NCBI GenBank assembly: GCA_002862435.1
Contig: PKDC01000057.1
Span: forward strand, 62,001-126,000
Origin: Pseudomonadota bacterium
Lineage (GTDB): Bacteria > Pseudomonadota > Gammaproteobacteria > UBA5335
DNA: 64,000 bases
Reading direction: 5' to 3'
Under the pieces are notes generated by a model that was not told where the DNA came from, made no database searches, and was given only the letters and a program-made list of their open reading frames with translations. Every line of letters begins with the position of its first letter. The stretch's first letter is position 1. The position numbers and the translations under genes were made by a program. Below, piece by piece: positions 1-33,862 of this stretch.

Positions 1-999
1 ACCAAGTATACGGCGGTGGACGGGACCGCCGGCCTCAAACAGGCGGTGGTGGAGAAGTTCCAGCGCGACAACGACCTGCGCTACACCCCCAAGCAGATCC
101 TGGTGTCCTGTGGCGCCAAGCAGAGCTTCTTCAACCTGTGCCTGGCCCTGCTGGATGCGGGCGATGAGGTGATCATCCCCGCGCCCTACTGGGTCTCCTA
201 CCCGGACATGGTGCTGATTGCCGATGCCACCCCAGTGATCGTGTCCACCACCATGGACGCGGGCTTCAAGATCACCGCCGAACAACTCGAAGCGGCGATC
301 ACCCCGCGCACCCGCATGCTGGTGCTCAACAGCCCGTCCAACCCCACGGGCAAGGCCTACAGCCGCGCCGAACTCCAAGCCCTGGGCGAGGTGCTGCGGC
401 GCCACCCTGAAGTGCTCATCGTCAGCGACGACATCTATGAAGTCATCCTGTGGACGCCGGAGCCTTTCGTCAATATCGCCATGGCCTGCCCGGATCTGGT
501 TGAGCGCACAGTGGTCATCAACGGCGTCTCCAAGAGCCACGCCATGACCGGTTGGCGCATCGGCTATGCTGCGGGGCCCGAGGCGCTGATCCAGGCCATG
601 ACCAACGTGCAATCCCAGAGCACATCCAACCCCACCTCCATCTCCCAGGTCGCCGCGGAAGCTGCCCTGCGCGGCGATCAGGCTTGCGTCGGCGAAATGG
701 TGAAAGCCTTCCGGCAACGCCACGACGCCGTGGTCGCCCGACTCAATGCATTGCCCGGCGTGCGCTGCCTGCCCTCGGATGGCACGTTCTACGCGTTCCC
801 GGATTTCTCGGCCGTGCTGGCGCGGCGCACGGATCTGGCCGATGACGTGGCCCTGGGCGAGTTCTTGCTGAACGAAGCCTTGGTGGCCCTGGTCCCCGGT
901 TCGGCGTTCGGCAGCCCTGGCCACATGCGGCTGTCCTATGCCACCAGTCAGGCCCTGCTGGACAAGGCCATGGACCGGCTGGCCGAGGCCCTCGGCTAA
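1..999 (+). CDS. Class I pyridoxal-phosphate aminotransferase (aspartate aminotransferase type), 5' end cut by window edge
   Basis: Open frame runs from base 1 (TKYTAVDGTAGLK...). Aminotransferase I motifs NSPSNPTGKAYS, SDDIYE and SKSHAMTGWRIGY (PLP lysine region). Confidence 0.92.
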   Translation, partial: TKYTAVDGTAGLKQAVVEKFQRDNDLRYTPKQILVSCGAKQSFFNLCLALLDAGDEVIIPAPYWVSYPDMVLIADATPVIVSTTMDAGFKITAEQLEAAITPRTRMLVLNSPSNPTGKAYSRAELQALGEVLRRHPEVLIVSDDIYEVILWTPEPFVNIAMACPDLVERTVVINGVSKSHAMTGWRIGYAAGPEALIQAMTNVQSQSTSNPTSISQVAAEAALRGDQACVGEMVKAFRQRHDAVVARLNALPGVRCLPSDGTFYAFPDFSAVLARRTDLADDVALGEFLLNEALVALVPGSAFGSPGHMRLSYATSQALLDKAMDRLAEALG

Positions 1000-1063
1000 G
1001 CGTTCGCGCCCCGGCTCGCCTTGACGGCAGCCGGGGCGTCGGCTAGGATTCGCCGCTTGTTGT

Positions 1064-1139
1064 TCCCCGGTAGCTCAGTCGGTAGAGCAGGTGACTGTTA
1101 ATCACCGGGTCGGCGGTTCGAGTCCGTCCCGGGGAGCCA
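1064..1139 (+). tRNA. tRNA-Asn (anticodon GTT)
   Basis: Cloverleaf readable: TCCCCGG acceptor pairs with CCGGGGA; D-arm AGCTCAGTCGGTAGAGC; anticodon loop CTGTTAA; T-arm GGTTCGAGTCC; encoded CCA. Confidence 0.97.
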
Positions 1140-1150
1140 TAAAATTCACG

Positions 1151-1178
1151 AAAGGCCGGACTTGCTCCGGCCTTTTTA
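1151..1178 (+). terminator. Rho-independent terminator after tRNA-Asn
   Basis: AAAGGCCGGA-CTTGC-TCCGGCCTTTTTATT hairpin plus T tract. Confidence 0.85.
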
Positions 1179-1206
1179 TTTCCCGGATCCCCGCTTCCAC
1201 GCCGTA

Positions 1207-1791
1207 TCAGCCGATGAACCTGCGCGCAGCAGCCACCGTCTCCTCGCAGGACTTGGCCATCTCCTCACAAATGGCATGCTGCTTGGCATGTTTGCGGCAC
1301 TCCTTGGCGCAGTCCTCGCATTCCTGCAGGCACACCGCGGCCATCGCCTTGGCCTGCGCCGAATCGTTCAAGGCCAGCTTGGCTGTTGCCTGACAGGCGG
1401 CAATGGTGCTGTCCACCAGGATGCCGCATTCGGCCAAGGCCGTATCACCGGACTTGAAGATCCGCAAAATATGGGCGAGGCAAGCCTGGCCGACAGTCAC
1501 GCAGTGAGAAGCCGCTGCGATCAACGCAGCGCGTGGGGTGTTGCCCGCCATGGCACCATGCGCGGCATGTTCATCCGCGCTGGCACCGGCCATCAGCGGC
1601 ATCGTGCCCAAAGCGGCCAGCGCCCCCATGGCGGCCAGCATGCGCCGTCTGGAGGGATCAAGCGCCGGAGGTTCTACTGCATCGAGCCCTTCAGTAAGGG
1701 TCACGGTCGCGCGCTGGTCAATCTCTTGGCTGTGCATGTTCAGATCCCCATGATGGTCATCACGATAAGAAATATCTGGAAGGCGATGCAT
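1207..1791 (-). CDS. Tat-exported four-helix-bundle copper-binding protein (DUF326 / Csp1-like)
   Basis: Twin-arginine signal (SRRRMLAAMGALAALG) followed by a Cys-rich helical domain (HCVTVGQAC...CLQECEDCAKECRKHAKQHAICEEMAKSCEE). The start may be the internal Met at ~1737. Confidence 0.8.
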   Translation of the reverse strand: MHRLPDISYRDDHHGDLNMHSQEIDQRATVTLTEGLDAVEPPALDPSRRRMLAAMGALAALGTMPLMAGASADEHAAHGAMAGNTPRAALIAAASHCVTVGQACLAHILRIFKSGDTALAECGILVDSTIAACQATAKLALNDSAQAKAMAAVCLQECEDCAKECRKHAKQHAICEEMAKSCEETVAAARRFIG

Positions 1792-1972
1792 TACGGGCTG
1801 TATTTCGCCAAGGGGCGATCTACTGACCGCCGACGATCATTATCCCGAGAGCGCGTCCGCTCATCGCATCCTCCATGCCGAGACGGATGTGTCGCAATTG
1901 CAGCAAACCCCGGCAGCTCAAGGGTTCGATTCCTGCGGGACAACGCCGGCCGGACTGTCCCATTCGATTGAT

Positions 1973-2980
1973 TCAGACGTGGTAGTAGGCTCGGTACCAG
2001 GTCACAAAACGGGCGATGCCTTCCGCTACCGGGGTGGATGGCCGGTAGCCGGTATCGCGCTCCAGGGGCGTGCAGTCGGCCCAGGTATCCGGCACATCCC
2101 CCGGCTGCATGGGCTGCAGGTCCAAGCGCGCCGGCCGGCCCAATGCCGCCTCCAGGGTGCGGATATAGGCAATCAGGTCGACCGGCTGGCCATTGCCAAT
2201 ATTGTAGATGCGATAAGGCGCGGTGCTGGCGGAAGGATCAGGCTGAGCAGCGTCAAAGTGCGGGTCAGGCCGGGCGGGCCGATCGAGGACGCGAATCACG
2301 CCCTCGACCACATCATCCACATAGGTGAAATCCCGCTTATGGCGGCCATAATTGAAGACCGGGATGGGTTCGCCCGCCAGAATGGCGCGGGTGAAGCTGA
2401 ACAACGCCATGTCCGGCCGCCCCCACGGCCCGTAAACGGTAAAAAAGCGCAGGCCGGTGGTGGGAATGCCATAGAGATGGCTGTAGGCGTGCGCCATGAC
2501 CTCGTTGGCCTTCTTGGTGGCGCCATAGAGGGCCAGGGGATGATCGGCTGGCTCCTCGGCGCGGAAGGGCATGCGTGTGTTGGCGCCATAGACCGAGCTG
2601 CTGGACGCATAGACCAAGTGACTCACGGCGCGGCTCCTGCAGCCCTCCAGGATGTGCAGGAAGCCGGTCAGGTTGCTGTCGGCATAGGCATGCGGATGGG
2701 TCAGGGAATAACGCACGCCGGCCTGGGCTGCGAGATTCACCACCCGGTCGATGGGCTGGGCACGGAACAGTGTCTCCATCCCCGAGCGATCGGCCAAATC
2801 CAGGTGGTGAAACGTAAAACCCGGCCGCTCGACGAGGCGGGCGAGGCGGGCTTCCTTGAGAGCGACCTCGTAATAATCATTGAGATTATCCAGGCCGATG
2901 ACCTGCTCACCGCGATCGAGCAAGCGCTCCGCGAGGTGATAGCCGATAAAACCGGCCGCGCCGGTGACCAGAACCGTCAT
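1973..2980 (-). CDS. NAD-dependent epimerase/dehydratase, UDP-glucuronate 4-epimerase type
   Basis: [21 protein letters not shown] Rossmann motif, [18 protein letters not shown] (YxxxK), [14 protein letters not shown]. Confidence 0.9.
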
Positions 2981-3115
2981 GCCCTGCCCTTTGTCATGCA
3001 AATGATTTGGGGGAATGCCAAGCGCCAATAGGTGAGAGAACCGGTCCGCCAAATTACATCAGCCGACCTGTCAGCCGGACCGAGTCTGATATCGCACGAT
3101 AGCGGCAACACGCCT

Positions 3116-4111
3116 TCAAAGCCCCGCGTTGTTGCGCGCAAACACCTGATCGGCACGGTAGCTGGAACGGACCAGCGGCCCGGCCACCACTTCCAGTAAA
3201 CCCATTTCCAGCCCCCATGCCCGGTAGCGCGCGAAATCTTCCGGCGGCACATAGCGCACCACCGGCAGATGGTTGGCGGTCGGCCGCAGGTATTGGCCGA
3301 AGGTGACAATGTCCACGCCAGCGGTGCGGGCGTCTTCCAAAGTCTGGCGGATTTCCTCTTCGGTTTCTCCGAGACCCAGCATCAGGCTGGTCTTGGTAAG
3401 CAGATCCGGAGCCGCGGCCTTGGCCATGCCCAGCACGGTGAGCGTTTGCTCGTAGCCGGCGCGCGGATCGCGTACCGGATGGGTCAAGCGACGCACCGTC
3501 TCCAGGTTCTGGGCATAAACCTGCAGCCCGGAGCGCGCCACCTCGGCCACGGCCATGGGGTTGCCACCAAAATCGGGGGTCAAGGCCTCCACCGCCGTAT
3601 CGGGACAGGCAGCGCGGATGGCCCGCACACAGGCCGCATAATGGGCCGCGCCACCGTCGGGCAGGTCATCCCGGTCCACCGAGGTGAGCACGACATACTT
3701 CAGCCCCATGAGTTGGACCGCATGGGCGGCATGGGCGGGCTCTTCCGGATCCAGCCGGCCACGGGGATTGCCGGTGTCCACCGCGCAAAAGCGGCAGGCA
3801 CGAGTGCAGATCGATCCCAGGATCATGAGCGTGGCGGTGCCATGGCTCCAGCACTCGGCCAGATTGGGGCAGAGTGACTCCTCGCACACCGTGGCCAGAC
3901 GGTTCTTGCGCACGATCTCCCGCACTTCCACATAGCGCCCGGCGCCCGGCACGGTCACCCGCAACCACGGCGGCTTGTCGCCCCGCGGCGGCGCAGCGGC
4001 AGCGGCATTGCGCTTGATGCCGTTCTTGATGGCCGTCACGCCCGATTTGGAGAACTTTTCGCCGCTCCGCACGGCGGCCGATTGGGAATCCCCCTCATCG
4101 CGGTTGGACAT
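3116..4111 (-). CDS. lipA: Lipoyl synthase
   Basis: [13 protein letters not shown] plus radical-SAM [36 protein letters not shown]-terminal [10 protein letters not shown]. Confidence 0.97.
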
Positions 4112-4260
4112 GCGCGCTCCTTATTCGTGAAGACCCAATCATACCAGCGCGAACGACCTTGGCAGGGAATGGACCCCGCCCCCATAATGCCTGCCCGAAA
4201 GAAGCCGATACGTCCACTGCTCACCCCGTTGCGAGCCACACCAAAGGATATTGTCACAAG

Positions 4261-6024
4261 ATGACCTGGGCTGCCTGGCTGACCATCTGCGTTGTTGTCG
4301 CCATGGTCGGCACGCTGATCCTGACCAATCTGGCTGCCGATGCGGTCTTTCTGGGCGCCATCACCGTGCTGATGCTCGCGGGTGTCATCACGCCCAAGGA
4401 GGCGTTTGCCGGCTTCGGCAACGAGGGTTTGATCACGGTGGGCGTGCTGTGCGTGGTGGCCGTGGCGCTGGAGGAAACCGGCGGCATCCACTGGCTGGTG
4501 CAGAACGTCTTGCGTCGGCCGCGCTCGCTGCGTCACGCACTGTGGCGCACGATGGCCCCCACGGCCGTCTTCAGCGCCTTCCTGAACAACACACCCCAGG
4601 TCGCCATGATGATCCCGGCGATCAACACCTGGGCCAAGAAATTCGATCTGCCGCCGTCCAAGCTGCTGCTGCCGATGAATTACGCCACCATCCTGGGCGG
4701 TACCTGCGCGCTGATCGGCACCAGCACCAACCTGGTGGTCGCCAGCATGCTCATCGGCGAGGGCATCCACCTCAACCTGTTCAGCATCGCGCCAGTCGGC
4801 ATTCCAGTTGCCATCGCCGGAATTTTATTTCTGATGCTATTTACCGACCGATTGCTGCCGGATCGGCGTCCCGCTATGAGCCAGTTGGGCGATCCCCGCG
4901 AATACAGCGTGGAAATGCTGATCGAAACGGCCGGCCCGCTCGTGGGCCACACCATCGAACAGGCCGGACTGCGCCATTTGCCGGGGCTGTATCTGGCAGA
5001 AATCGATCGACGTGGCCAGATTCTGGCAGCGGTGTCCCCCCAGGAAATCTTGCAAGCGGGTGACCGCTTGTTGTTCGTAGGCATCGTCGATTCAGTAGTG
5101 GAGTTGCAAAAGATCCGTGGCCTCACCCCGGCGACCCAACAGGTCTTCAAACTGGAAGGTCCGCGCTCAGGCCGCTGCCTGGTGGAAGCCGTGGTTTCCG
5201 GAACCGGACCGCTCTCCGGCAAAAGCATCCGCGATAGCGGTTTCCGCACCCGTTACAACGCTGTCGTCATTGCCGTGGCGCGCAGCGGACAGCGCCTTGA
5301 GCAGAAAATTGGCGATATCGAACTGGAGCGGGGCGATACCCTGCTCCTGGAAGCGCGCCCCAATTTTTTCGAGGAACACCGCAACTCGCGTGATTTCCTG
5401 CTGGTGCGGCGGATCGAGGACTCCAGCCCCCCGCGCCATGAACATGCCCTGCGTGCGGTCCTGATCATGCTCGGCATGATCCTGAGCGCGTCCTTTGGCT
5501 GGCTGAGCATGCTGGAAGCCGCTCTCCTGGCAGCAGGTCTGATGATTGCCGCTGGCTGCGTCAGTCCTCAGACCGCCCGCAGCAGCATCGACTGGCCGAT
5601 CCTGGTGGTCATCGGTGCCTCCTTCGGGCTCAGCAGCGCATTGGAGAATACCGGCGCTGCTCGGGCAGTCACCGAAGCGTTACTTGCACTGACCGGAACC
5701 GACCCCGGTGCCAACCTGATCATGATTTATCTGGTGACGGTGCTGCTGACCAATGTCATCACCAACAACGCAGCCGCCGCCTTGATGTTCCCCTTCGCTG
5801 TGAGCGTCGCGCATAATCTGGGGGTGAGTTTGCTCCCATTTGGGATTGCCATCATGATGGGGGCATCAGCCGCTTATGCCACGCCGATGGGCTACCAGAC
5901 CAATCTGATGGTGATGGGTCCAGGCGGCTATCGGTTCATCGATTACGTGCGCCTGGGGGTTCCGCTGACCATTATTACCGGGGCAGTTACTCTGGCGCTG
6001 ATTCCCCGTTTTTGGCCTTTCTAG
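4261..6024 (+). CDS. SLC13/DASS-family permease with two internal RCK_C (TrkA-C) domains; candidate sulfate transporter by context
   Basis: Multi-TM protein with SNLVV/TNLMV-type repeats and a central hydrophilic domain (GHTIEQAGLRHLPGLYLAEIDR...GDRLLFVG). It sits immediately 5' of sat-cysC. Confidence 0.85.
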   Translation: MTWAAWLTICVVVAMVGTLILTNLAADAVFLGAITVLMLAGVITPKEAFAGFGNEGLITVGVLCVVAVALEETGGIHWLVQNVLRRPRSLRHALWRTMAPTAVFSAFLNNTPQVAMMIPAINTWAKKFDLPPSKLLLPMNYATILGGTCALIGTSTNLVVASMLIGEGIHLNLFSIAPVGIPVAIAGILFLMLFTDRLLPDRRPAMSQLGDPREYSVEMLIETAGPLVGHTIEQAGLRHLPGLYLAEIDRRGQILAAVSPQEILQAGDRLLFVGIVDSVVELQKIRGLTPATQQVFKLEGPRSGRCLVEAVVSGTGPLSGKSIRDSGFRTRYNAVVIAVARSGQRLEQKIGDIELERGDTLLLEARPNFFEEHRNSRDFLLVRRIEDSSPPRHEHALRAVLIMLGMILSASFGWLSMLEAALLAAGLMIAAGCVSPQTARSSIDWPILVVIGASFGLSSALENTGAARAVTEALLALTGTDPGANLIMIYLVTVLLTNVITNNAAAALMFPFAVSVAHNLGVSLLPFGIAIMMGASAAYATPMGYQTNLMVMGPGGYRFIDYVRLGVPLTIITGAVTLALIPRFWPF

Positions 6025-6109
6025 CGTCCATGCCGGCCGGATCGTGCGAGATATAGCTCCACACCCACTGCCTTTCCATCCCATTGACCTCCATAGAAAG
6101 CGAGTGACC

Positions 6110-7822
6110 ATGTCCGAGTTGATCACCCCCCACGGCGGCTCCCTGAAACAGCTTTATCTCGACGGCGAATCTCGCCAGCGGATGCGGGAACAGGCCAGCG
6201 CCTATCCGGGCTGGAATCTCACGCCGCGCCAACTGTGTGACTTGGAGCTGTTGCTCAACGGCGGCTTTTCGCCTCTGGAAGGCTTCATGGGCGAGGCAGA
6301 TCATGCCCGCGTTCTGTCCGAAATGCGGCTCGCCAATGGCACGCTGTGGCCCATGCCCATCACCCTGGATGTCGACGAGGCATTCGCTGGAAAACTCGGC
6401 AGTGGTGACTGGATCGGTCTGCATGATCCTGAGGGCGTACTGATTGCCGTCATGCGGGTGGATGACATCTGGCGGCCCGACCTCGGGGCCGAGGCCGAGG
6501 CCGTGTTCGGGACCCGGGATGAGGCCCACCCGGGCGTGAGCCATCTGCTGCGCCGCAGCCATCCGGTCTACCTGGGCGGACCAGTGCATGGCCTGGATGC
6601 CCCGACTCACTACGATTTCAAGAGCCGGCGCCATACCCCTGCCGAGATGCGCACATTATTCGACAAGCTGGGCTGGCGACGCATTGTGGCTTTCCAGACC
6701 CGCAACCCCATGCACCGCGCCCATCAGGAACTCACCATTCGTGCCGCCCGGGATGCCGAGGCCAATCTGCTCATCCATCCCGTGGTGGGCATGACCAAGC
6801 CGGGCGACATCGACTACTACACCCGCGTACGCTGCTATGAGCAGTTGCTCAAGCGCTACCCGGAGCAGACCACCCTGCTCAGCCTGCTGCCGCTGGCCAT
6901 GCGCATGGGCGGTCCGCGCGAGGCCCTGTGGCACGCCATCATCCGCAAGAATCATGGTTGCACCCATTTCATCGTGGGGCGCGACCACGCCGGCCCCGGC
7001 AAGGACAGCCACGGCAAGGATTTCTATGGTCCCTACGACGCCCAGGAACTGGTCGCAACGTATCAGGATGAACTCGGCATCACCATGGTGCCCTTCCAGG
7101 AAATGGTCTACGTTCAGGACCGTGCCCAATACGCCCCCGACAATGAAATCCTGCCCGAGGAAACCGTGCTCAACATCTCGGGCACTGAGTTTCGCCGCCG
7201 CTTGAGGGAAGGCGCCGAGATCCCGGAATGGTTTTCCTACCCCGAGGTGGTCGCCGAACTCAAGCGCAGCTATCCACCGCGCCACCAGCAGGGCTTCACG
7301 GTGTTCTTCACCGGCCTGTCGGGCTCCGGCAAGTCCACCATCGCCAACGCGCTCATGGTCAAGCTCATGGAAATGGGCGGCCGGCCGGTGACCCTGCTGG
7401 ACGGCGATCTGGTGCGCAAGCACCTCTCCAGCGAGCTGGGTTTTTCCAAGGAACACCGCAACCTCAATATCCTGCGCATCGGCTATGTCGCCGCCGAAAT
7501 CACCAAGCACCGTGGCATCGCCGTGTGCGCGCCCATCGCGCCCTATCGGGAAACCCGCCGTCAGGTGCGGGAAATGGTCCAGGCCGGCGGGGGTTTCATC
7601 GAAGTGCATGTGGCCACGCCGCTGGAGGTCTGCGAAAGCCGGGACCGCAAGGGGCTCTACGCCAAGGCGCGAGCCGGCCTGATCCCTGAGTTCACCGGAA
7701 TCTCCGATCCTTACGAGGTGCCGGAACAGCCTGACCTGGTCATCGACACCCAGGATTGTTCGGCTGATGAGGCGGCCCTGCGAGTCTTGCTGAAGCTGGA
7801 AAGCCTGGGGTTCATTGCCTGA
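6110..7822 (+). CDS. Bifunctional sulfate adenylyltransferase / adenylylsulfate kinase
   Basis: Sat motifs QTRNPMHRAHQEL and GRDHAGPGKD; C-terminal APS kinase P-loop FTGLSGSGKST and DLVRKHLSSELGFSKEHRNLN. Confidence 0.95.
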   Translation: MSELITPHGGSLKQLYLDGESRQRMREQASAYPGWNLTPRQLCDLELLLNGGFSPLEGFMGEADHARVLSEMRLANGTLWPMPITLDVDEAFAGKLGSGDWIGLHDPEGVLIAVMRVDDIWRPDLGAEAEAVFGTRDEAHPGVSHLLRRSHPVYLGGPVHGLDAPTHYDFKSRRHTPAEMRTLFDKLGWRRIVAFQTRNPMHRAHQELTIRAARDAEANLLIHPVVGMTKPGDIDYYTRVRCYEQLLKRYPEQTTLLSLLPLAMRMGGPREALWHAIIRKNHGCTHFIVGRDHAGPGKDSHGKDFYGPYDAQELVATYQDELGITMVPFQEMVYVQDRAQYAPDNEILPEETVLNISGTEFRRRLREGAEIPEWFSYPEVVAELKRSYPPRHQQGFTVFFTGLSGSGKSTIANALMVKLMEMGGRPVTLLDGDLVRKHLSSELGFSKEHRNLNILRIGYVAAEITKHRGIAVCAPIAPYRETRRQVREMVQAGGGFIEVHVATPLEVCESRDRKGLYAKARAGLIPEFTGISDPYEVPEQPDLVIDTQDCSADEAALRVLLKLESLGFIA

Positions 7823-30719: not shown

Positions 30720-31075
30720 GCTGACTTTCAAAACCTCCGCCACCGTCAGCACCCCCGGCAAACGCTTGCCCTAGCGCACCGACGCGACGTCCTTCAACCA
30801 ACTCATCAATCTTAAGCACCTGCCGATATAGGAATCGCGGGGCGCTCTTCGCTGGGTTCCGGATCGAGGCCGACACCTTGCCGGCTATCACGAGATGCGA
30901 CAGGAACACTTCAATCTCAGTCGCTCACATATCGCGCGGGTGACGCCGGACATGGACAAGACAAACCGCCGCACGCAATCGACGCAGGCTCCTCGGGACG
31001 GATGCTGTAATTCAGCCGGCGGATACGGACGCGCTCTTCATCCCGTTTGGATGCTGCGCCAGAGGTGTGATCGAC
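30720..31075 (-). pseudogene. Integron integrase (IntI-type tyrosine recombinase) pseudogene, frameshifted and lacking the catalytic C-terminus
   Basis: Stitching minus-strand frames gives ERVRIRRLNYSIRPEE / CVDCVRRFVL / VHVRRHPRDM*ATEIEVFLSHLVIAGKVSASIRNPAKSAPRFLYRQVLKI / KRLPGVLTVAEV. This is the recognisable IntI pattern (HYSIRTEExYVxWIRRF..FHGKRHPRxMG..EVExFLxHLAVxxxVSASTQNQAxxALLFLYxxVL). Confidence 0.85.
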
Positions 31076-31221
31076 AGGTGTTTTACAACGTTTGACGCAC
31101 CCAAGAGTCTTTGAGTGGTTTAGCTCTGTCAAATGTCAGGCACCCATAAAGTGTAATGCAAGACACCTTTTTGGGCGTCTAATTATAGTTAGCTGGCATT
31201 GGTAATGGTCGCGAGGAAAAC

Positions 31222-31692
31222 ATGAGCGAGCGAGATACCAAAAACCTTACACTAAAAGAATGGATTGCCGGAATCGGCGCTCTATTCCAATTGCTCGGAG
31301 TTATCCTTCTGCTCGCCGTTGTCGGGCTTTTTGGGCTTGAGTTTTATAGATCAAGCAAGATTGACGATCTCGAGCTGCCTGGCGGGAAGTTCTCGCCAGC
31401 CATGTACAACGAACATTTTTGCAGAAACAGCCCGAACTACGAGATTCTCGGTATCCATGCGTCGACACGCATAGGGCTGTGGTATAGCAGAATCAGCTTT
31501 AGGTCGCAAGCTTACTTGCATGCCAAGGATACATTGACGGCCATGTCAGCTGTGAGAGATTTTCAGCGAGTGGGAGATGAGGTCGCGGCCAATCAGGCTA
31601 TTCGGGATGCTGAGTCGCGGCTACATCAGGCCGTGGAGTCATACGTCTCATCAACATGTTTTGATGCGGAGATGAAAAGGCGCACTTATTAA
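31222..31692 (+). CDS. Integron cassette ORF: hypothetical protein with one N-terminal TM helix
   Basis: ATG ORF behind GAGGAAAAC; LFQLLGVILLLAVVGLFGLEFY TM segment; no family recognised. Confidence 0.75.
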   Translation: MSERDTKNLTLKEWIAGIGALFQLLGVILLLAVVGLFGLEFYRSSKIDDLELPGGKFSPAMYNEHFCRNSPNYEILGIHASTRIGLWYSRISFRSQAYLHAKDTLTAMSAVRDFQRVGDEVAANQAIRDAESRLHQAVESYVSSTCFDAEMKRRTY

Positions 31693-31799
31693 CGCCACTC
31701 GCAAGAAACTGAATCCGACGAACCATAGAGACGTTGCTATGCTCAGAAGTTGGATGGCGATGGCAGACACTTCTGCTGGCCGGCGATAACGAGCTGCCA

Positions 31800-31826
31800 G
31801 CTAACAATTCGCTCAAGCAGTTAGCC
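31800..31826 (+). repeat. Collapsed/truncated attC site
   Basis: GCTAACAATTCGCTCAAGCAGTTAGC: complementary R''/R' boxes (GCTAAC/GTTAGC) with the usual AACAATTCGCTCAAGC left half, but no central stem. Confidence 0.65.
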
Positions 31827-31851: not shown

Positions 31852-32505
31852 ATGGGGCAGAGCACATATCGAATCTCCATGGACAAACGTTGGGATTTGG
31901 AGGACCTATATCTACTTCCTCATGCCTACTCACAAAACTATGCCTTTGTTTACTGCTTTGACACGACTTTAGACCCGCGTGACGCGGAGCGAATCGACTA
32001 TGCACTTCAGGGATATCCGTGGCGCGGAGGGTACAGTTACGTAAACATCTACAGGGTCCTGAAGCATCAGATTCCAAGCAAAGAACGACCGAAAATCGCT
32101 GCTATTCAATACGCGTCTCCTGGTTGGATCGACCTTGCGCTCAATCCAGATGTCGCAATGCAGATCGCAAAGTCCGTAGGAATTTACCTTTGTGGATCGG
32201 TAGGCGCTGGAAGTACCTATCGAAAAATAAATTCCATCCTCGCAAAAATCAACGAAGAGCGTGCACGCGCACGAAACGCCCAATTAAAGCTGGCCAGAGC
32301 TGAAGCAATCGAGCTTGCAAAGCTCTCGCAGGAGCTGGCAAAGAGTTGGGATTTCAATAACGTTAATCAACTGACCCATAGAACCGGAGACGCAGAGGTA
32401 GCCACACGGCTGTTGATGGCACATTACAGGCGCATGAAAATTCTTGGAGATTACGTGCTCAAAGGTAAAGCAAGATTTCCCGAGAACCTGAGTGATGACG
32501 GCTAA
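31852..32505 (+). CDS. Integron cassette ORF: hypothetical protein (217 aa)
   Basis: GGGAGGCGC upstream; stop codon TAA lies inside the following attC R'' box (GGCTAAC). Confidence 0.8.
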   Translation: MGQSTYRISMDKRWDLEDLYLLPHAYSQNYAFVYCFDTTLDPRDAERIDYALQGYPWRGGYSYVNIYRVLKHQIPSKERPKIAAIQYASPGWIDLALNPDVAMQIAKSVGIYLCGSVGAGSTYRKINSILAKINEERARARNAQLKLARAEAIELAKLSQELAKSWDFNNVNQLTHRTGDAEVATRLLMAHYRRMKILGDYVLKGKARFPENLSDDG

Positions 32506-32558
32506 CAAAGCGTTGCAGCCGACGCCGCTTCGCGGCGCGGCTGAGCTTAATCGTTAGA
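32500..32558 (+). repeat. attC recombination site (59 bp)
   Basis: GGCTAACAAAGCGTTGCAGCCGACGCCGCTTCGCGGCGCGGCTGAGCTTAATCGTTAGA. CTAAC/GTTAG pairs; GCAGCC pairs with GGCTG(A)GC, leaving one extrahelical base as is typical of attC. Confidence 0.9.
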
Positions 32559-32568
32559 ATGCATTGAT

Positions 32569-33300
32569 ATGACTAAGCGCGAAGAGATAAAGAAAGAGCT
32601 AAAAGCGCTCTATGATGAGGGTGCAAAGATTGCTGCTGCCTTCGAGAAAAAGGAAGAGAAGCAGTTTCGATGCGACTATCAGCGCTGGTATACGAAGGCG
32701 CTAAAGACGATTGAGTCATTGGCCCCAGATCGGCTGCCAGAATTTCGTGGTTACTACGAAATTGACACTAAACGAAAGTCTCTTGGCTACGGCACCTACG
32801 TAATCCAGGACTTCATTAAGGGCGTTCCACCAAGCCCTTACCAGCATCCAGACTTTGACGCTCGTTTGCAGACGCTGCTGTGCTTCATCAATCAACTAAC
32901 AATTCTAAATTCGGTAGAGGAGCGAATTACGTCTCTGCTTGCAAACATTGAGGGAGAGCTATACGCGGGATTGCAAGACGGAGAAATTTTCGTAGCTCGC
33001 CAGCTAGCTAAGGTCAGTCCACGTGCGGCTGGCGCACTTGTGGGCGTTGTAATTGAAGGCCATCTCCAAAAAGTTGCGGCAACACATGCGGTCAAGATCG
33101 GCAAGAAGCATCCAAGCATTTCGGATTTGAATGATCCTTTGAAGGCTGAAGGCATTATCGATGTGCTAACGTGGAGAAAGATCAGCTATTTGGCCGACCT
33201 GAGAAATCTCTGCTCGCACAAGAAGGACGCTGAACCAACCAAAGAGCAGGTTGAAGAACTTATGCAAGGCGCAGAGTGGATCACGAAGAATGTCTTCTAA
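32569..33300 (+). CDS. Integron cassette ORF: hypothetical protein with C-terminal HEPN-like Rx4H motif
   Basis: 243-aa frame; ...KISYLADLRNLCSHKKDAEPTKEQVEELMQGAEWITKNVF (R-NLCS-H); stop codon overlaps attC. Confidence 0.8.
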   Translation: MTKREEIKKELKALYDEGAKIAAAFEKKEEKQFRCDYQRWYTKALKTIESLAPDRLPEFRGYYEIDTKRKSLGYGTYVIQDFIKGVPPSPYQHPDFDARLQTLLCFINQLTILNSVEERITSLLANIEGELYAGLQDGEIFVARQLAKVSPRAAGALVGVVIEGHLQKVAATHAVKIGKKHPSISDLNDPLKAEGIIDVLTWRKISYLADLRNLCSHKKDAEPTKEQVEELMQGAEWITKNVF

Positions 33301-33358
33301 CAATTCGCTGGAGGCGCGACGGCCCTGACAGGCCGCGGCCTGAGCTCAAAAGTTAGAT
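33295..33358 (+). repeat. attC recombination site (~63 bp)
   Basis: TTCTAACAATTCGCTGGAGGCGCGACGGCCCTGACAGGCCGCGGCCTGAGCTCAAAAGTTAGAT: TCTAAC/GTTAGA plus internal GGCC...GGCC stem. Confidence 0.9.
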
Positions 33359-33385: not shown

Positions 33386-33862
33386 ATGATTAAGCCAAAT
33401 TCAGAATACAAAATCAGTGCACTTTGTGGGCTCCCGCCAGGATTGTTTGGCAAAACGTATTCAATTGTCACAGCCACCGAGGTGGACGCAGATCTGATCA
33501 AGGCTGAATACTTCCTACTAGTGCAACTTCCGACTGCCGCATTGCATCATAGAACCTGTGAGCCAAATCTGAAGAACTCTCCACCCGAACTCGAGCGATG
33601 GGATATCTCATCCGCACTGGATGAGGCTCAATTTCGAGTGAAGATTGAGGTTGAAAACCTTCTAGAGGCACTCGCGGATGAATTGAATGGCCAAGAACTT
33701 GATTTTCTTCCATTTGAGTTCAAGTCAAACGGGGTGAACCTTATGAGCCCCTGGAGTAGTGGACTGTTTCATTCGCAGATTAGAGAGATTATGCGTCGAA
33801 CGGAGTCGCTAAAATTGAAACAGTACCTTGAATCAGTGGTTTTAAGCCCACCTATGAAATGA
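33386..33862 (+). CDS. Integron cassette ORF (terminal; no attC visible downstream): hypothetical protein
   Basis: 158-aa ATG ORF starting 28 bp after the attC GTTAGAT; no family recognised. Confidence 0.7.
   Translation: MIKPNSEYKISALCGLPPGLFGKTYSIVTATEVDADLIKAEYFLLVQLPTAALHHRTCEPNLKNSPPELERWDISSALDEAQFRVKIEVENLLEALADELNGQELDFLPFEFKSNGVNLMSPWSSGLFHSQIREIMRRTESLKLKQYLESVVLSPPMK

Follow-up and report, generated by a model that had tools for sequence, protein, structure and literature searches.

The gene at positions 32569-33300 on the forward strand of the window, that is, of the whole 64,000-nucleotide stretch of DNA analysed here, probably encodes a mobile, single-gene, DUF4145-like HEPN endoribonuclease that would act against phages by an abortive-infection-type response. 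We put the probability of this reading at roughly 60%. As judged from sequence and from a predicted structure, membership of the protein in the HEPN superfamily is well supported; its RNase activity is a prediction from this membership.

Results

In the ORF list of the window the reading frame is intact from ATG to TAA and codes for 243 amino acids (the protein includes ...LADLRNLCSHKKDAEPTKEQVEELMQGAEWITKNVF). Its assignment as the gene of a HEPN-type (DUF4145-like) protein is based on this ORF reading, on the Pfam DUF4145 profile and on the homologues. The C-terminal domain (32995-33297, +), which comprises residues 143-233 by Pfam and about residues 123-241 in the structure model, matches DUF4145 (PF13643) over positions 3-85 of the 88 of the profile with 23.6 bits, a narrow pass over the curated cut-off of 23.1 bits, and the same profile is matched at E<=0.1 by 13 of 21 homologues. 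DUF4145 has been assigned to the HEPN superfamily and has mostly kept the catalytic motif (Anantharaman et al. 2013, PMC3710099). In the protein of the window this motif would be R212-N-L-C-S-H217 (33202-33219, +), an Rx4H string near the C-terminus. Such a string by itself is to be expected by chance; what raises it above that level is the invariance of R212 and H217, the ratio of synonymous to non-synonymous change and the DUF4145 score above cut-off. R212, C215, H217 and likewise E139 are invariant in all 33 aligned homologues, which are 33-75% identical, and E139, R212 and H217 are still kept in a wider set, to which three DUF4145-like proteins with identities near 20% were added. Synonymous sites are saturated at high protein identity (mean pS 0.87, pN 0.17), and this combination with few non-synonymous differences indicates strong purifying selection.

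The AlphaFold (AF2) model of the protein is all helical with a pLDDT of 87, its pTM of only 0.54 leaving the mutual placement of the two domains unsure. Helices of the C-terminal domain are modelled at residues 123-146, 151-172, (184-193), 199-214 and 225-241; R212 is located at the end of helix 199-214 and H217 in the next loop, before helix 225-241. This corresponds to the published HEPN layout, in which the Rx4-6H motif occupies a helix end and the following loop, and the short extra helix that precedes helix 199-214 in the model agrees with this layout too (PMC3710099). The Foldseek matches at a probability of about 0.9-1.0 are the HEPN domains 2hsb (1.00, TMt 0.67), 1o3u (0.99, TMt 0.65) and 6m6w, all with E-values above 0.1 (0.6-0.7 for the first two), and HEPN-MNT toxins are also among the matches. 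Weak E-values are expected in fold searches with helical bundles, for which loose matches are common. PDB sequence searches with the protein and with the family profile gave no HEPN match, so that the assignment of the fold rests on the predicted model; a fold search of BFVD returned nothing useful. The initial annotation had called the protein HEPN-like, and this is borne out by the profile score, by the HEPN domains that lead the fold search, by a predicted HEPN-like helical core that carries the motif in its usual place, and by the conservation of its arginine and histidine among the homologues.

The N-terminal domain (about residues 1-121; 32569-32931, +) is all helical as well. These approximately 120 residues have no convincing match in Pfam, NCBIfam, PADLOC or PHROGs, and none of the PADLOC models, including PD-T4-10, matches the HEPN protein. 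Across the family alignment the domain shows the conserved pattern YQxWY...DR..EF..YYE.D.KRK..GY.TY.IQD and it may well represent the sensor or regulatory part of the protein.

The gene was further claimed to be cassette-borne. We identified attC sites with two covariance models, R1, which is partly circular, and R2, which was trained without the sites of the window on attC sites from other parts of the genome and from one relative, and whose consensus structure shows the R and L boxes as two short stems, as it should for attC. The HEPN gene is preceded by an attC site at 32500-32559 (+; 51.8 bits with R1; 45.9 bits, E 9e-8 with R2), which is part of the preceding cassette, and followed by its own at 33295-33358 (+; 55.2 bits with R1; 44.9 bits, E 1.6e-7 with R2), the 5' core of which (TTCTAAC) overlaps the TAA stop codon. 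Recovery of both flanking sites by a model that was built without them confirms the claim. Otherwise R2 matches in the window only a degenerate attC between the first and second cassettes, the middle of which is deleted (31799-31826, +; 23.0 bits with R1; 17.4 bits, E 0.37 with R2). Recombination points read from the attC cores, G^TTAGAA (32553) and G^TTAGAT (33352), delimit an integron gene cassette of 799 bp (32554-33352, +) that consists of the HEPN gene and its attC and leaves 15 nt between cassette start and ATG. It thus holds a single ORF between attC sites of the same orientation and is too small for an additional antitoxin ORF, in keeping with the earlier remark that no antitoxin is obvious in the same cassette.

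The array in which this cassette resides is short and decayed. It begins next to a broken integron-integrase remnant in the intI position (30733-31193, -), which retains the N-terminal part only and contains frameshifts and stops, so that the integron must be regarded as decayed. The first cassette ORF (31222-31692, +; 156 aa) has a hydrophobic N-terminal stretch and belongs to no family, the preceding cassette (ORF 31852-32505, +; 217 aa) encodes a homologue of PD-T4-10_B (PADLOC, 120.5 bits, E 2.6e-35), and the HEPN cassette is followed by an ORF of 158 aa without a family (33386-33862, +). The covariance models found no attC after this last ORF, and the array is apparently truncated there. 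G+C content is 49% in the patch that contains the HEPN gene versus 65% across the window. No promoter better than chance was found ahead of the array, which makes expression of the window copy doubtful. In the assembly (70 contigs) no intact integron integrase matches TIGR02249 over its cut-off, and frameshifted remnants are all that is left.

Remnants of the integrase are found at five dispersed places of the genome (window 30733-31193 (-), L035, L036, L037 and L039) with 76-82% DNA identity. Most of them have attC nearby, and about ten further attC sites are present on other contigs of the same genome, which thus contains several dead mini-integrons. In or near such other attC sites lie further HEPN-like ORFs, namely L040 1563-2069, which has RNTISH, and L039 3715-4446, L035 3350-4087 and L038 1897-2319, which have weak DUF4145 or HEPN matches. 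By the integrase remnant and attC of L037 (797-3176) a HAD-like ORF, a 205-aa ORF and a DprA-family protein (127.8 bits) follow in a row and possibly form a three-gene unit related to nucleic acids.

Genome-wide and viral scans queried with the window protein gave no homologues; the family was found after a relative had replaced it as the query, and viral-contig scans added members. Phage records yielded no match and plasmids one. Together with the window protein 12 members form a tight clade, 61-75% identical to the window protein, and 11 of them are exactly 243 aa long. Its hosts are Xanthomonas, Polaromonas, Sideroxydans, Oxalobacteraceae, Janthinobacterium, Paraburkholderia, a Methylomirabilota and a Verrucomicrobiota, in addition to viral contigs. 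Most copies are on integron cassettes and others are in prophages. The gene is directly followed by an attC found with R2 in the window and at L018; at L022 the R2-found site is one gene further on, the one directly after the gene reaching only E 0.28, and the putative attC sites that follow L019, L021, L024 and L026 were missed by R2. The attC calls at L019, L021, L022, L024 and L026 are therefore to be read as resting on R1 and on position directly after the stop codon, where R1 had the sites of L022, L024 and L026 in its training set and is weak for L019 and L021. A GTTRRR sequence 12-16 nt before the ATG is present in the window, L018, L019, L021, L022 and L024 and absent from the other clade members checked; at L019, L021, L022 and L024 it is a further basis of the attC calls. 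By ORF reading, L025/L043 and L044 are prophage-like, with terminase- and portal-like genes adjoining. As integron and other copies are intermixed on the tree, the gene has evidently changed its vehicle. It is absent from eight further genomes of the same order.

Five of the 12 clade loci have a defence-type neighbour. A PD-T4-6-like kinase (325 bits) lies directly downstream of the HEPN gene at L017, an AriA/AriB-like (PARIS-like) ATPase-TOPRIM pair 135 bp downstream at L023, and an AAA_15 ATPase next to it at L044; at L026 the HEPN gene is preceded by a CAP12/PDC-S35 TIR protein and followed by a ThsA/ThsB Thoeris pair, and in the window the neighbour is the PD-T4-10_B homologue. The sample is small, and since 37 ordinary ORFs of the window gave four PADLOC families as a control, some of them generic, the gene-level excess at the clade loci is modest. 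The weight of the neighbourhood signal lies in the occurrence of complete or dedicated systems beside so few loci. The PADLOC names among the control ORFs, all outside the array, are SoFic, CARF_ADA, mad2 and mad3. The viral-labelled contig of L026 resembles a defence island over 864-6581, where the TIR PDC-S35 protein, the HEPN gene and ThsA/ThsB lie together, and at L023 (4905-8079) the HEPN gene lies directly 5' of the AriA/AriB-like pair, with recombinase-like ORFs on both sides. The ORF immediately after the HEPN gene at L020 (5719-6639) encodes a membrane protein that weakly matches RiboL-PSP HEPN and so might be HEPN-like itself.

Discussion

How would such a protein act? From what is known of HEPN proteins in general, we suggest that the protein dimerises through its C-terminal HEPN domains, which would bring R212 and H217, together with the acidic E139 or E163, into a composite RNA-cutting site. 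The substrate would probably be tRNA or mRNA. The conserved N-terminal helical domain may hold the enzyme quiet in healthy cells, sense a phage-caused change and then release the activity, which would stop translation and phage growth. A role of this kind has a favourable prior by analogy with the literature: at least 16 of 179 integron cassettes of V. cholerae (approximately 10%) gave anti-phage activity, as did 9 of 57 tested cassettes of V. parahaemolyticus (PMC12409362). Like the anti-phage cassettes of V. cholerae, V. parahaemolyticus and mobile integrons described in 2025, the HEPN cassette is compact, holds a single gene and lies beside a defence-type cassette. Different from the Vibrio cassettes, which belong to large arrays, it resides in a short array whose integrase is dead, and protection is predicted.

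HEPN proteins are classic toxins of TA systems with MNT antitoxins, and TA pairs abound in integrons. Could the protein then be the toxin of a toxin-antitoxin pair, its antitoxin being encoded by a cassette next to it or at some other place in the genome? HEPN-MNT toxins share with it the HEPN fold and the Rx4-6H motif and are among its fold matches, and the adjoining cassette encodes a homologue of a TA toxin, PD-T4-10_B of the anti-phage TA system PD-T4-10. However, the HEPN ORF is alone in its cassette, no partner gene recurs in the loci compared except between closely related prophages, and no MNT nucleotidyltransferase was recognised beside any family member; the protein moreover differs from HEPN-MNT toxins by its additional N-terminal domain. 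The PD-T4-10 model in turn misses the HEPN protein, and the PD-T4-10_B homologue is itself a lone cassette, PD-T4-10_A not being seen. As there is no conserved adjacent antitoxin across the family loci, we consider a toxin-antitoxin pair unlikely. The earlier proposal of a candidate effector or toxin thus finds support in its first part from the PARIS-like, Thoeris, PD-T4-6 and PD-T4-10 neighbours, and none in its second in the sense of a toxin-antitoxin toxin.

The many homologues on viral contigs, two of them beside terminase and portal genes, and the fact that the homologues are single genes without a partner would also suit a prophage-type gene for superinfection exclusion or other phage benefit (a moron), which was captured by integrons and blocks rival phages without cleaving RNA. 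But the complete Rx4H motif is invariant, as is an acidic residue, and this speaks for catalysis; moreover, the preferred reading of an anti-phage endoribonuclease takes in the prophage-borne copies as well and so overlaps with this explanation, which we regard as improbable in its own right.

RNA processing is another known role of HEPN domains, and for those encoded by integrons a role in stress-induced dormancy was proposed in 2013 (PMC3710099). A non-defence function of the protein, be it in RNA binding or processing or in stress dormancy, nevertheless has a rather small chance of being correct, because the gene is patchily distributed, being absent from the eight other genomes of the order and present at 61-75% identity across distant phyla, and has copies within prophages and next to dedicated defence systems, a pattern unlike that of a housekeeping RNA processor. 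Finally, a chance Rx4H motif in a helical, non-HEPN protein could account for the weak Pfam score and for loose fold matches as they are typical of helical bundles, but it is hardly conceivable given a DUF4145 score above cut-off, a motif invariant in 33 sequences and modelled in the HEPN position, and HEPN domains at the top of the fold search.

With the DUF4145-like HEPN families the protein shares a C-terminal domain above the curated cut-off and the Rx4H motif, as well as the tendency to adjoin defence genes (PMC3710099). It differs in its marginal score, in the unmatched N-terminal helical domain and in that it stands alone, without fusion to helicase, nuclease or AbiJ-NTD modules. Another integron-cassette protein of the HEPN type has been described before (PDB 3jrt, Anantharaman et al. 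2013). Membership in that family was rejected, as 3jrt is not matched by phmmer or by the family profile up to E 10 and is absent among the 50 Foldseek matches listed, and the family of the window protein appears to be separate from it.

Conclusions

The protein of the window represents a family that is new and uncharacterised, though of a known kind, HEPN, and is no surprise in principle. We give slightly less than an even chance to the possibility that the family is a hitherto undescribed type of single-gene phage defence, whose HEPN RNase is controlled by its own unnamed N-terminal sensor and which passes as a self-sufficient unit between integrons and prophages of different phyla. A single gene for 243 amino acids with a clear catalytic motif makes it easily tractable by means of two point mutants. 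According to recent reports, anti-phage genes are stored in integrons, and defence libraries miss most of them. The family would be a case of this gap, as it has no PADLOC model and yet is kept at 61-75% identity in hosts as distant as Verrucomicrobiota and Xanthomonas. Its N-terminal domain, which is conserved as well, is a specific candidate for the part that senses phages.
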